Source: a virus
DNA: 25,226 nt
IMG/VR virus record: IMGVR_UViG_3300036859_000139
Span: 1-25,226 of that record
Reading direction: 5' to 3' (one strand)
Below are positions 1,006 to 4,734 of the stretch, piece after piece (within the stretch, counting starts at the first letter, position 1; every line of letters starts with the position of its first letter). Both the position numbers and the translations under genes were made by a program. A model generated the notes under the pieces. The model was not told the origin of the DNA. It worked only from the letters and a program-made list of their open reading frames with translations, and did not search any database.

Positions 1006-1179
1006 ATGGCCGAGACACCTTCGAGCGGACCCGAGAAGCAGTTCCCCAGGCGGCGCTGCGACCAGTGTCGGCGGTCGTATCGCCCGACGCGAGAGTGGCA
1101 GCGCTTCTGCCGTAGGCTCTGCCGGCTCCACGCCTGGAGGCAACGTCTCGCGCAAGCCGAGACCCGGGCGGCGGGCTGA
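1006..1179 (+). CDS. Small zinc-ribbon-like protein (57 aa)
   Basis: A short ORF starting at ATG 1006, whose TGA (1177-1179) overlaps the next ATG as TGATG. The product is rich in Arg and has a C-x2-C pair (Cys18, Cys21) and a C-x3-C-x2-H group (Cys35, Cys39, His42) around a QRFC motif. This resembles the tiny one-finger modules common in phage early regions, whose usual form is CxxC, about a dozen residues, FCxxxCRxxxW. It probably binds zinc and perhaps DNA; the role is unknown. It is the first gene of the rightward early block. Confidence 0.65.
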   Translation: MAETPSSGPEKQFPRRRCDQCRRSYRPTREWQRFCRRLCRLHAWRQRLAQAETRAAG

Positions 1180-1520
1180 TGTCGCTCTACCGCGATCTCC
1201 CCGCGCAGGATCTCGGCCCGCTGTTCAGGGCGCGGACCTACCCGCAGCACCCAGGCGCGAAGGAGAAGGGCTCGACGAGCGAGCAGGCGGCGCGCGCGGT
1301 CGACTCCGAGGCGCGCACCCTCCGCTCGGCCTGCGTGGGCGCTCTTCGCCGCCACGGGGCGCGCAGCTCTGACGAGGTAGCACAAATCCTCGGGAAATCC
1401 GTGCTCGCGATCAGGCCACGGCTCAGCGAGCTCCGCCGCCTCGCGCTGATCGAGCCCGCCGGCGAGCGCGTGCAGAACGCGAGCGGGATGTCCGCCAAGC
1501 GGTGGCGGGTGGTAGCGTGA
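1179..1520 (+). CDS. Winged-helix DNA-binding protein
   Basis: A 113-residue protein. Residues about 46-113 form a winged helix-turn-helix: a first helix (TLRSACVGALRRHG), an HTH (SSDEVAQILGKSVLAIRPRLSELRR) and a wing (LALIEPAGER...MSAKRWRVV). The phrase RPRLSELRRLALIE is typical of phage wHTH proteins in early modules that resemble MarR or ArsR recognition folds. It probably binds DNA, as a regulator or a replication accessory factor; the target cannot be read from the sequence. Its start overlaps the upstream stop and its own stop overlaps the following GTG, so it is likely translationally coupled to both neighbours. Confidence 0.7.
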   Translation: MSLYRDLPAQDLGPLFRARTYPQHPGAKEKGSTSEQAARAVDSEARTLRSACVGALRRHGARSSDEVAQILGKSVLAIRPRLSELRRLALIEPAGERVQNASGMSAKRWRVVA

Positions 1521-1636
1521 TCCTCGCCCTTGCCGTTCTCGCTCTCGCTGCGGTCGTAGCGGTCATCGTTGTCGTCGGGATCATCATCGGCGGTGCTCGT
1601 TCCTTCGGCCGGATCCATCGGGAGGCGGGCTGGTGA
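1517..1636 (+). CDS. Tiny single-pass membrane protein (39 aa)
   Basis: A GTG start at 1517 overlaps the upstream stop as GTGA, and the TGA at 1634-1636 overlaps the next GTG at 1633. The product is almost wholly a hydrophobic helix (residues 2-25, Ile/Leu/Val/Ala) followed by a short polar tail (ARSFGRIHREAGW). The tight overlaps at both ends and the clean transmembrane profile support a real gene. Function is unknown. It could be an inner-membrane peptide such as a superinfection or lysis modulator, but nothing here decides that. Confidence 0.55.
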   Translation: MILALAVLALAAVVAVIVVVGIIIGGARSFGRIHREAGW

Positions 1637-2571
1637 ACGCCGCCGCCCTCTTCGTCCTCCTACTCTCCTGGGACGGCGCGGACTACCGCCTGGTCTCCCA
1701 GATGCTCGAGTCCGGCGAGCTCGCGCACCTGGCTGAGATCGTCAGCACCGGGACGTTTCAGCAGCTCACCTGCGAGGAGCGCACCATGACCAAGCCCTGC
1801 TTCGCCACCATGCTCTCAGGTTTGCCGTGGTGGGCGCACGGCACCGAATCCAACCTCGTCTACCGGGCGATCCCGCCCGGGAAGTCCATCTTCGAGAAGC
1901 TTCGCGCCCTCGGCATCCCGAGCGCCTATGTGACGCAGAAGTGCCAGCCCGGGAACCACGGGAACCTCTGCGGCGGATCTACCCAGGGCAGCGATGGGGT
2001 GATGGTCCCGAACACCTTCCAAGCGGCCCCCACGAACACAGTCTATTACTCCGCTACGCAGAGCCGGCGAGACGACGACTACCGAGCCTTCATCCCTCCG
2101 CAGACCAAGCGTTGTCGGAAGGGGATCAAGGCCGTTCAGCAGGCGAGCAGAGACGGCCGCGGCATGGTCTGGTGCCACTACGGATGGCCGGACGACGCGG
2201 GACATGCCTTCGGGGGAGCGTCTGAGGAATACCGCGACTCGCTGCGGCTGCTCGACACGCAGATTCCGGGTCTACTCGCGAGACTACCTATCGGCGCCGT
2301 CGTGCTCGTCACCAGCGACCATGGCTTCGAGCGGGCGGGCGAGCCGACTGAGCAGCCGGTCACGAGCCGCTACCGCGACGTCGGGGAGTTCGGGCGGACG
2401 CACTGGTACGAGCCTCGGGCGATCATCGGCTCGAACGTGCCGCTGCTCTCGCCGGCATCCGGGCGCGATATCTTCAAGACGCTGTTCGCGCTGATGGGAA
2501 TCGAGGCGCCGCCGTATCCGAGCGGAAGGAGCCTGTCGCCGAAGCCGCCCCGGAAGCGAGCCGGGCGATGA
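1633..2571 (+). CDS. Alkaline-phosphatase superfamily enzyme (phosphodiesterase/pyrophosphatase-like)
   Basis: A 312-residue protein with the metal and nucleophile layout of the type I phosphodiesterase/nucleotide pyrophosphatase branch of the alkaline phosphatase superfamily. Asp14 lies in LLSWDGAD, a nucleophile-position Thr53 in TMTKPCF, Asp187 and His191 in PDDAGHAFG, Asp229-His230 in VTSDHGF, and a late His257 in RTHWYE. The expected two-zinc ligand set therefore looks complete, so a working phosphoester hydrolase is likely. The substrate is unknown; nucleotides, lipid headgroups or teichoic-type polymers are all possible. No cleavable signal peptide is evident: the hydrophobic start (AAALFVLLLSW) is the first core strand. 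The gene lies in the early block, coupled by overlap to the membrane peptide before it and the zinc-binding gene after it. This class is uncommon in phage early regions. Confidence 0.8.
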   Translation: MNAAALFVLLLSWDGADYRLVSQMLESGELAHLAEIVSTGTFQQLTCEERTMTKPCFATMLSGLPWWAHGTESNLVYRAIPPGKSIFEKLRALGIPSAYVTQKCQPGNHGNLCGGSTQGSDGVMVPNTFQAAPTNTVYYSATQSRRDDDYRAFIPPQTKRCRKGIKAVQQASRDGRGMVWCHYGWPDDAGHAFGGASEEYRDSLRLLDTQIPGLLARLPIGAVVLVTSDHGFERAGEPTEQPVTSRYRDVGEFGRTHWYEPRAIIGSNVPLLSPASGRDIFKTLFALMGIEAPPYPSGRSLSPKPPRKRAGR

Positions 2572-2816
2572 GGCGCTCCGCGCGCCCGCACCATTGCCAC
2601 GCCATCGATTGTAAGCTCGATGTCCCGCCGCGGCTGCTCATGTGCGCGGCCCACTGGGCTCTCGTCCCGGCCGAACTTCAGCGCCGCGTTTACGCCGCCT
2701 ACACCCCCGGCCAGGAACACCTCGGGTATGTCACCGGGGCCTACCTCGAGGCGGCCGCGGCAGCCGTTCAGGCCGTCGCACGCGCCGAGGGGAAAATGCG
2801 GAGGGCCGAGGCGTGA
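2568..2816 (+). CDS. Small zinc-binding phage protein (82 aa)
   Basis: Starts at ATG 2568 inside the upstream stop (ATGA). Residues 8-30 carry H-H-C-H, Cys15 and a later C-x2-H (MCAAHW) around a VPP motif, which looks like a single zinc site. The second half (LVPAELQRRVYAAYTPGQE) matches a small conserved phage family in which CH...C...VPP...MC..HW..VP is followed by a helix ending in GQE. Members usually sit next to replication or recombination genes, as here. Function is unknown. Confidence 0.65.
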   Translation: MRRSARPHHCHAIDCKLDVPPRLLMCAAHWALVPAELQRRVYAAYTPGQEHLGYVTGAYLEAAAAAVQAVARAEGKMRRAEA

Positions 2817-3544
2817 GCGACGGCCGGCGATCCCACAAGGCGAAGCCAGCGGTCCGCGTGCACACCACGTGGCCCAACCATCCCCGCTACGGCCGCGCGT
2901 TCGACGACGTCGAGATCCGCGGCGTGGTCGTCGGGATCTGGATCATGGCCCACCGCGCGCACGCCTCGAAGACCAACGACACGGTCAGTCTGAGCGGCGG
3001 CGATATCCTCGCGATCACCGGCCGAGAGCGCTCCGTAGACGCTGCGAAGGTGCTTCGAACAGCCTGCGAAGCGATGTCGTACGAGCTTCGAAAGACCCCC
3101 GATCAGCCTGCGAGATGGTCGATCCGCGTCCGCAACTTCTCAAGAAAGCAGGGATTCGAAGGGCGCGATGGTAAGCAACCCGCCCCCACTGCGCCCCCCT
3201 CCGAATCCGAGTCCTTATCCCCATCCGAGTCCGCATCTCTATCCCCTACCCCTTCCGCTCCCACGAGGGGCGGCAACGGAGCAGACCGGATCGCCAATCG
3301 AGACCGCCTGAAAGCCCAGAGGGACCTGGTCGTCGACGACATCGTGCGAGCAACCGGAGACGGTCACGACCTCACCCGGAGGCTGTACGAGAACTACGTC
3401 GACCGGCTCGGGGAGCAGGCCGTCAGGGAGCTGATCTCCAGGGTCTCCAAGCCGGAGGTTTTCAACCCGGCTGGGCTGTTCAGCGACCTCGCTCAGGAGC
3501 AGCTCGCCCTCGTCATGGAGCGTAGGGTCGCGCTCGCCCGCTGA
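2813..3544 (+). CDS. Replication-initiator-like protein with Ser/Glu/Pro linker
   Basis: The start is taken as GTG 2813, overlapping the upstream TGA as GTGA; in-frame codons upstream belong to the previous gene. The product has 243 residues. The N-terminal part (about 15-110; PNHPRYGRAFDDVEIRG..., LSGGDILAITG) looks like a winged-helix DNA-binding domain of the type found in phage replication (O/DnaD-like) proteins. A low-complexity linker follows (about 122-152), rich in Ser, Glu and Pro with repeated SES and SPS. A C-terminal helical part (about 160-243; VVDDIVRATGDGHDLTRRLYENYVD) may bind a helicase loader or helicase. The position before a RusA resolvase supports a DNA replication or recombination role. 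No helicase or polymerase gene is in the window. Confidence 0.6.
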   Translation: MSDGRRSHKAKPAVRVHTTWPNHPRYGRAFDDVEIRGVVVGIWIMAHRAHASKTNDTVSLSGGDILAITGRERSVDAAKVLRTACEAMSYELRKTPDQPARWSIRVRNFSRKQGFEGRDGKQPAPTAPPSESESLSPSESASLSPTPSAPTRGGNGADRIANRDRLKAQRDLVVDDIVRATGDGHDLTRRLYENYVDRLGEQAVRELISRVSKPEVFNPAGLFSDLAQEQLALVMERRVALAR

Positions 3545-3933: not shown

Positions 3934-4734
3934 ATGAGAAAAATCACGATCGATGAGCTGAAAGAGATCCTGCATAAGCACCTGCTCTGGCGCCGGGGCG
4001 AGCCGGGGGGGGGCCGCGCGGACCTGCGCGGCGCGGACCTGAGCGGCGCGTACCTGAGCGGCGCGTACCTGAGCGGCGCGTACCTGCGCGACGCGTACCT
4101 GCGCGACGCGGACCTGAGCGGCGCGTACCTGAGCGGCGCGGACCTGAGCGGCGCGTACCTGAGCGGCGCGGACCTGCGCGGCGCGTACCTGCGCGACGCG
4201 GACCTGCGCGACGCGGACCTGCGCGGCGCGGACCTGAGCGGCGCGTACCTGAGCGGCGCGGACCTGCGCGACGCGTACCTGCGCGACGCGTACCTGCGCG
4301 ACGCGTACCTGCGCGACGCGTACCTGCGCGACGCGAGGAACATCCCCGAGGGCATCACGGCAGAACCACCAGGCCCTCCAACGCCGGAGCTCCTCGCGCG
4401 GCGTGCAGCACGAGCGCAGCGCTACCGGCAGCGCTATCCCGAGGTCCCCATCGTCGAGAACCTCGACGCGAAGATCCTGGAGGCAATCGAGGATGGCGGC
4501 ACGCTCGATATGTCCGACTGGCACAGGTGCAAGACGACGCACTGCCGCGCCGGCTGGGCAATCACGCTGGCCGGGAAGGCGGGGCAGACCCTCGAGACCG
4601 ACTTCGGATCCGAGCTCGCGGGCGCGATGATCTACCGCGCGAGCACCGGGCACGTGCCGGACTTCTTCGCCACGACGGAGGTGGCGCTGGAGGACATCGA
4701 AGCGTGCGCGAAGGCGGCGGAAGCGACGCGGTGA
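3934..4734 (+). CDS. Pentapeptide-repeat protein with conserved C-terminal domain
   Basis: A 266-residue protein in three parts. Residues 1-27 include a short helix (TIDELKEILHKHLLW). Residues about 29-135 are pentapeptide repeats of form A-(D/Y)-L-(R/S)-(G/D), expected to fold as a right-handed quadrilateral beta-helix. Twelve of 21 units have Tyr where Asp or Asn is usual, giving a Tyr-lined face. Residues about 165-266 form a separate domain (LDAKILEAIEDGGTLDMSDWH, then CKTTHCRAGWAITLAG) with two Cys and a His that also occurs in other phage pentapeptide proteins. Known pentapeptide proteins such as Qnr and MfpA mimic DNA and protect gyrase, but that function is not shown here. The next gene begins at GTG inside its stop. 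Confidence 0.85.
   Translation: MRKITIDELKEILHKHLLWRRGEPGGGRADLRGADLSGAYLSGAYLSGAYLRDAYLRDADLSGAYLSGADLSGAYLSGADLRGAYLRDADLRDADLRGADLSGAYLSGADLRDAYLRDAYLRDAYLRDAYLRDARNIPEGITAEPPGPPTPELLARRAARAQRYRQRYPEVPIVENLDAKILEAIEDGGTLDMSDWHRCKTTHCRAGWAITLAGKAGQTLETDFGSELAGAMIYRASTGHVPDFFATTEVALEDIEACAKAAEATR
4021..4335 (+). repeat. 21-copy tandem array of a 15-bp unit within the pentapeptide gene
   Basis: Twenty-one perfect-length 15-bp units without spacers. Each is (G/T)ACCTG(C/A)GCG(G/A)CGCG, so only three of the 15 positions vary, and every variation changes an amino acid. Five unit types occur (DLRGA, DLSGA, YLSGA, YLRDA, DLRDA). The AGC form is always followed by GGC. The last four units are identical. 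Confidence 0.97.

Follow-up and report, generated by a model that had tools for sequence, protein, structure and literature searches.

The window analysed here, a virus record of 25,226 bases, encodes a protein that its sequence supports well as a metal-dependent phosphodiesterase/pyrophosphatase-like hydrolase. Our preferred reading, to which we give about an even chance, is that this is a compact and apparently intact two-metal hydrolase of the NPP branch, carried as a mobile cargo gene for general nucleotide or phosphodiester hydrolysis. The NPP/alkaline phosphatase superfamily is widespread in cells and nearly absent from phage records. The present lineage was seen in two unrelated phages only, is shared as a single gene and is under purifying selection, suggesting that phages do use the NPP/alkaline phosphatase fold.

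Family assignment and active site

The first-pass annotation of this DNA had proposed a phosphodiesterase/alkaline-phosphatase-like enzyme with a full set of seven catalytic residues. Profile searches agreed with this class: PF01663 (type I phosphodiesterase/nucleotide pyrophosphatase) matched residues 8-235 of the window protein with an E value of 1.7e-15. The score of 57.9 bits lies above the curated cut-off of 23 bits and places the protein in the family, as does that of its 84% identical relative (64.1 bits, E 2.3e-17). All seven residues were found at the positions listed: the nucleophile T53 (codon at 1789) and the metal ligands D14 (1672), D187 (2191), H191 (2203), D229 (2317), H230 (2320) and H257 (2401). 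H257 lies outside the Pfam match and was assigned from position alone (THWYEPRAIIG after SDHG). The complete set is kept in the relative.

The closest solved structures by sequence are NPP7, a bacterial NPP and phosphonoacetate hydrolase, all of which are hydrolytic; the best matches thus did not fall in a non-hydrolytic group. Alignments to these three proteins jointly cover the motifs of D14, T53, N74, D187/H191 and D229/H230. N74, in the HGTESN segment, aligns with HGVVHN of NPP7, so the Asn typical of NPPs is present; its counterpart in the Xanthomonas NPP is N111. A wider profile, to which distant cellular relatives had been added, recovered the whole NPP family, partly because those relatives were included in it. 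The AlphaFold model, built from a two-row alignment, had a mean pLDDT of 32, too low to be relied on.

Like the NPPs (the bacterial NPP 2gsn and ENPP7, 5tcd; PF01663), the window enzyme has the TxxP nucleophile motif, the DxxGH metal pair, SDHG and a late His, and in both the Asn follows the nucleophile by 21 residues. It is much shorter, at about 300 residues, and only 27 residues separate H230 from H257, whereas the corresponding stretch of NPPs spans about 100. The overall match to NPPs is weak (single-sequence E about 1e-4 to 1e-5). The N-terminal DG and T motifs of phosphonoacetate hydrolase (PhnA, TIGR02335, 1ei6) align with window residues 9-77, but the protein scored only 19.3 bits against the TIGR02335 equivalog, whose curated cut-off is 407.55, and is not a member. 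The alkaline phosphatase PafA shares PF01663 with the window enzyme, and its T to N spacing is likewise 21. It was not ranked in single-sequence searches with the window enzyme, and its Lys/Arg phosphomonoesterase pair was not recognised there by eye.

We infer catalysis and metal use from these likenesses. The enzyme would belong to the NPP branch of the alkaline phosphatase superfamily and use two metals, probably zinc, at sites formed by D14/D229/H230 and D187/H191/H257. Thr53 would attack the phosphorus to give a phospho-enzyme between the two metals, and Asn74 would help to hold the phosphoryl oxygen.

A coupled early operon on a phage contig

Six consecutive genes on the plus strand, from 1006 to 3544, each overlap the next by 1-4 bases (in order, TGATG, GTGA, GTGA, ATGA and GTGA; Table 1). 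The first-pass annotation had described the enzyme gene as coupled to a membrane peptide and a zinc-binding gene, and the coupling is borne out by stop/start overlaps on both sides, GTGA at 1633-1636 and ATGA at 2568-2571. The downstream protein has the Cys/His pattern HHCHAIDC...MCAAHW, from which zinc binding may be supposed. The codon usage of the enzyme gene lies inside the range of the other genes of the window phage. Together with the overlaps and the GGAGG site, this indicates that the enzyme gene is well integrated into the early operon. We considered whether a frameshift might fuse the 39-residue peptide to the enzyme; the two reading frames are not the same and a GGAGG site stands ahead of the GTG, which makes separate coupled genes the simpler explanation.

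Table 1. Features of the coupled early operon in the window
Position	Strand	Feature	Basis
1006..1179	+	Cys-rich protein, 57 aa, weak NinG/HNH-like matches; start of the chain	profiles, overlap
1179..1520	+	113-aa protein, phrog_1123 (unknown function), weak winged-helix-like matches; coupled upstream	profiles, overlap
1517..1636	+	hydrophobic one-helix peptide, 39 aa	hydropathy, overlap
1621..1625	+	GGAGG Shine-Dalgarno site, 7 bases 5' of GTG 1633	sequence
1633..2571	+	PF01663 metallo-phosphodiesterase-like enzyme, 312 aa, GTG start, no signal peptide	profile, alignments
2568..2816	+	small Cys/His protein, 82 aa, phrog_18063 (unknown function)	PHROG match, overlap
2813..3544	+	early protein, 243 aa, no family match; GTGA overlap with the preceding gene	overlap

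The partners do not lie beside the relative. Relatives of phrog_18063 occur in Variovorax, Mycobacterium and Myxococcus phages, and none of these phages matched the enzyme; the phage with the second copy of the enzyme yielded no relatives of the 82-residue protein or of the membrane peptide. The check proposed in the first-pass annotation, to look for homologues near the same partners, thus came out negative for the only relative found, and neither partner is peculiar to the enzyme.

The window also carries terminase, portal, major head and tail genes, and a profile match identified an integrase. It is very improbable that a binning or assembly artefact caused a host gene on a fragment to be wrongly taken for phage. 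PF01663-like matches among phage records are indeed mostly host-like mutase genes or short fragments lacking annotation, but here the enzyme gene shares its contig with the terminase and structural genes just named, and the overlaps tie it to members of phage families, phrog_18063 immediately downstream and phrog_1123 two genes upstream. The contig of the relative has portal, terminase-like and DNA polymerase genes as well.

Adjoining the integrase, positions 927-975 look by eye like a tRNA-Arg(CCT) gene cut down to its 5' half and form a possible attP; ARAGORN and Rfam reported no tRNA there. The early region also encodes, at 3934-4734, a pentapeptide-repeat protein (PF00805, E 9.7e-38), a type of protein that in some cases mimics DNA or targets gyrase.

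Rarity among phages and sharing of a single gene

Such enzymes had been called uncommon in phages, and our searches agree. No PHROG matched the enzyme, no match to it was found among 50,697 phage records, and 2.9 million viral contigs, scanned by pattern and by peptide, yielded a single relative, on IMGVR_UViG_3300036859_000303. Three distant cellular PF01663 queries, run against the phage records, found nothing but phosphoglycerate-mutase genes and short fecal fragments without annotation. Cellular relatives in plasmid records were distant (~25% identity at best). Scanning 84,980 species genomes with two peptide patterns only gave no relatives, which makes very close relatives in sequenced species unlikely, distant ones being outside the reach of such a scan. 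We also found no phage-borne PF01663 enzyme in the literature searched.

Several candidates were discarded. An RNA phage contig (L014) from the viral-contig pattern scan was a chance match, as were all nine other contigs from another viral-contig scan. Matches in Halorubrum and Haloarcula viruses (E 0.02-0.2) were calcineurin-type proteins and not relatives, and a Limnohabitans phage paper citing NPPs concerns MazG, not a phage NPP.

The contig of the relative (G001; 29,647 bases) is also a phage, with genes for an SU10-type portal, a terminase-like protein, a UDG-DNA polymerase A and a PD-(D/E)XK protein. By protein and DNA comparison, the enzyme gene is the only gene common to the two phages. 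Its two copies are ~78% identical in DNA and 84% in amino acids, with DNA identity dropping to background outside codons 4-303, and the protein similarity likewise runs from residue 4 to 303. Comparison of the copies gave dN 0.12 and dS 1.16, a ratio of about 0.1, indicating that the protein is under purifying selection. One gene shared between otherwise unrelated phages fits a mobile cargo gene, and the pattern as a whole fits a selected, separately moving one. Such a gene, of auxiliary or moron type, would move singly between unrelated phages and be kept by selection. In the phage with the relative, a uracil-DNA glycosylase domain is fused to DNA polymerase A (L007:13914-16559), and the contig with the relative has an IS1-type transposase match (L006:6464-7414), which is unusual for a phage record.

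Export signal and possible roles

The relative starts with MKLMCAIVLLAIASLIAARAQA-AD, which by eye and hydropathy is a classic Sec signal peptide. The window copy starts with MNAAALFVLLLSWDG, directly at the enzyme's first strand, and by inspection has no leader; the part shared by the two copies begins at the end of the relative's signal. We rejected the idea that a signal peptide lies concealed further upstream in the reading frame of the enzyme, since that stretch is polybasic and offers no ATG, GTG or TTG as a start. Because only one copy has a signal peptide, the relative is expected outside the cytoplasm and the window copy inside, which points to a substrate of the relative that would lie outside the cytoplasm. 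This difference argues against one simple shared role and weakens a single defence-messenger explanation; one broad activity may be used in two places. The pair, one copy with and one without a signal peptide, lets one compare, as a natural experiment, the places in which such an enzyme benefits a phage.

We infer substrate, location and benefit along these lines under the preferred reading of general hydrolysis. In the window phage, an early-operon enzyme without an export signal would find its phosphodiester or nucleotide substrates in the cytoplasm, and in the other phage the enzyme would be exported. Its most likely use would be general hydrolysis that supplies phage or host with nucleotide or phosphate, not dedicated antagonism of defence.

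Host takeover or counter-defence had been put forward in the first-pass annotation, and here its whole claim divides: enzyme class, active site, coupling and rarity stood, and this function found no specific support. Phages do carry phosphodiesterases such as the anti-CBASS and anti-Pycsar nucleases Acb1 and Apyc1, which destroy nucleotide second messengers of defence and offer a possible functional analogy. Acb1 is a 2H phosphoesterase and Apyc1 a metallo-beta-lactamase, folds other than that of the window enzyme. An unlikely alternative is that a cytoplasmic enzyme destroys CBASS, Pycsar, Thoeris or type III CRISPR nucleotide messengers early in infection. It would suit the window copy, which sits in an early coupled operon and, having no signal peptide, would stay in the cytoplasm. 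Phage nucleases that degrade messengers exist (PMC9117128), and NPP-type enzymes are able to cleave cyclic dinucleotides, as does the animal NPP enzyme ENPP1, which degrades cGAMP (PMC9173814). The Sec signal peptide of the 84% identical relative, however, is a misfit with destroying a cytoplasmic defence messenger, at least for that copy. The partners are not conserved beside that relative, no defence-related neighbours of the enzyme gene were recognised, and our analysis found no known counter-defence protein of the PF01663 family. PADLOC defence families gave no match to the enzyme up to E 1, which is weak evidence because PADLOC lists defence and not counter-defence. A new NPP-fold phage counter-defence enzyme, combining cytoplasmic messenger destruction and single-gene mobility with an exported version acting outside the cytoplasm, appears quite unlikely.

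Lysogenic conversion would account for the exported copy in another way: the enzyme would strip a phosphate-linked group from a lipid or surface polymer, blocking superinfection or altering the host surface. The signal peptide of the relative and the integrase of the window phage are in line with such envelope modification, and envelope-modifying enzymes occur in the alkaline phosphatase superfamily. We nevertheless consider it improbable, since the window copy has no export signal, its start being well supported by GGAGG and the coupling, and its gene sits in an early operon, not in the independent position typical of a moron.

General hydrolysis, the reading we prefer, touches on phosphorus supply, where phages carry other phosphate-ester hydrolases. 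The phosphorus-acquisition genes phoA, phoD and ugpQ are likewise phage-borne but of other families; such genes are established in soil phages, and NPP/PafA-type genes are absent among those named in the part of PMC10987575 considered here. No phosphate-stress genes were recognised among the enzyme's neighbours. Periplasmic phosphate scavenging by a PafA/NPP-like auxiliary metabolic gene, with the window copy as a derivative that lost its signal, has a small chance of being correct. PafA was not ranked by the narrow sequence searches, and the window copy would not reach the compartment where such scavenging takes place. On the other side, PF01663 also covers the PafA phosphatases (PMC8812569), soil phages carry phosphorus genes including phoD (PMC10987575), and the relative has a signal peptide.
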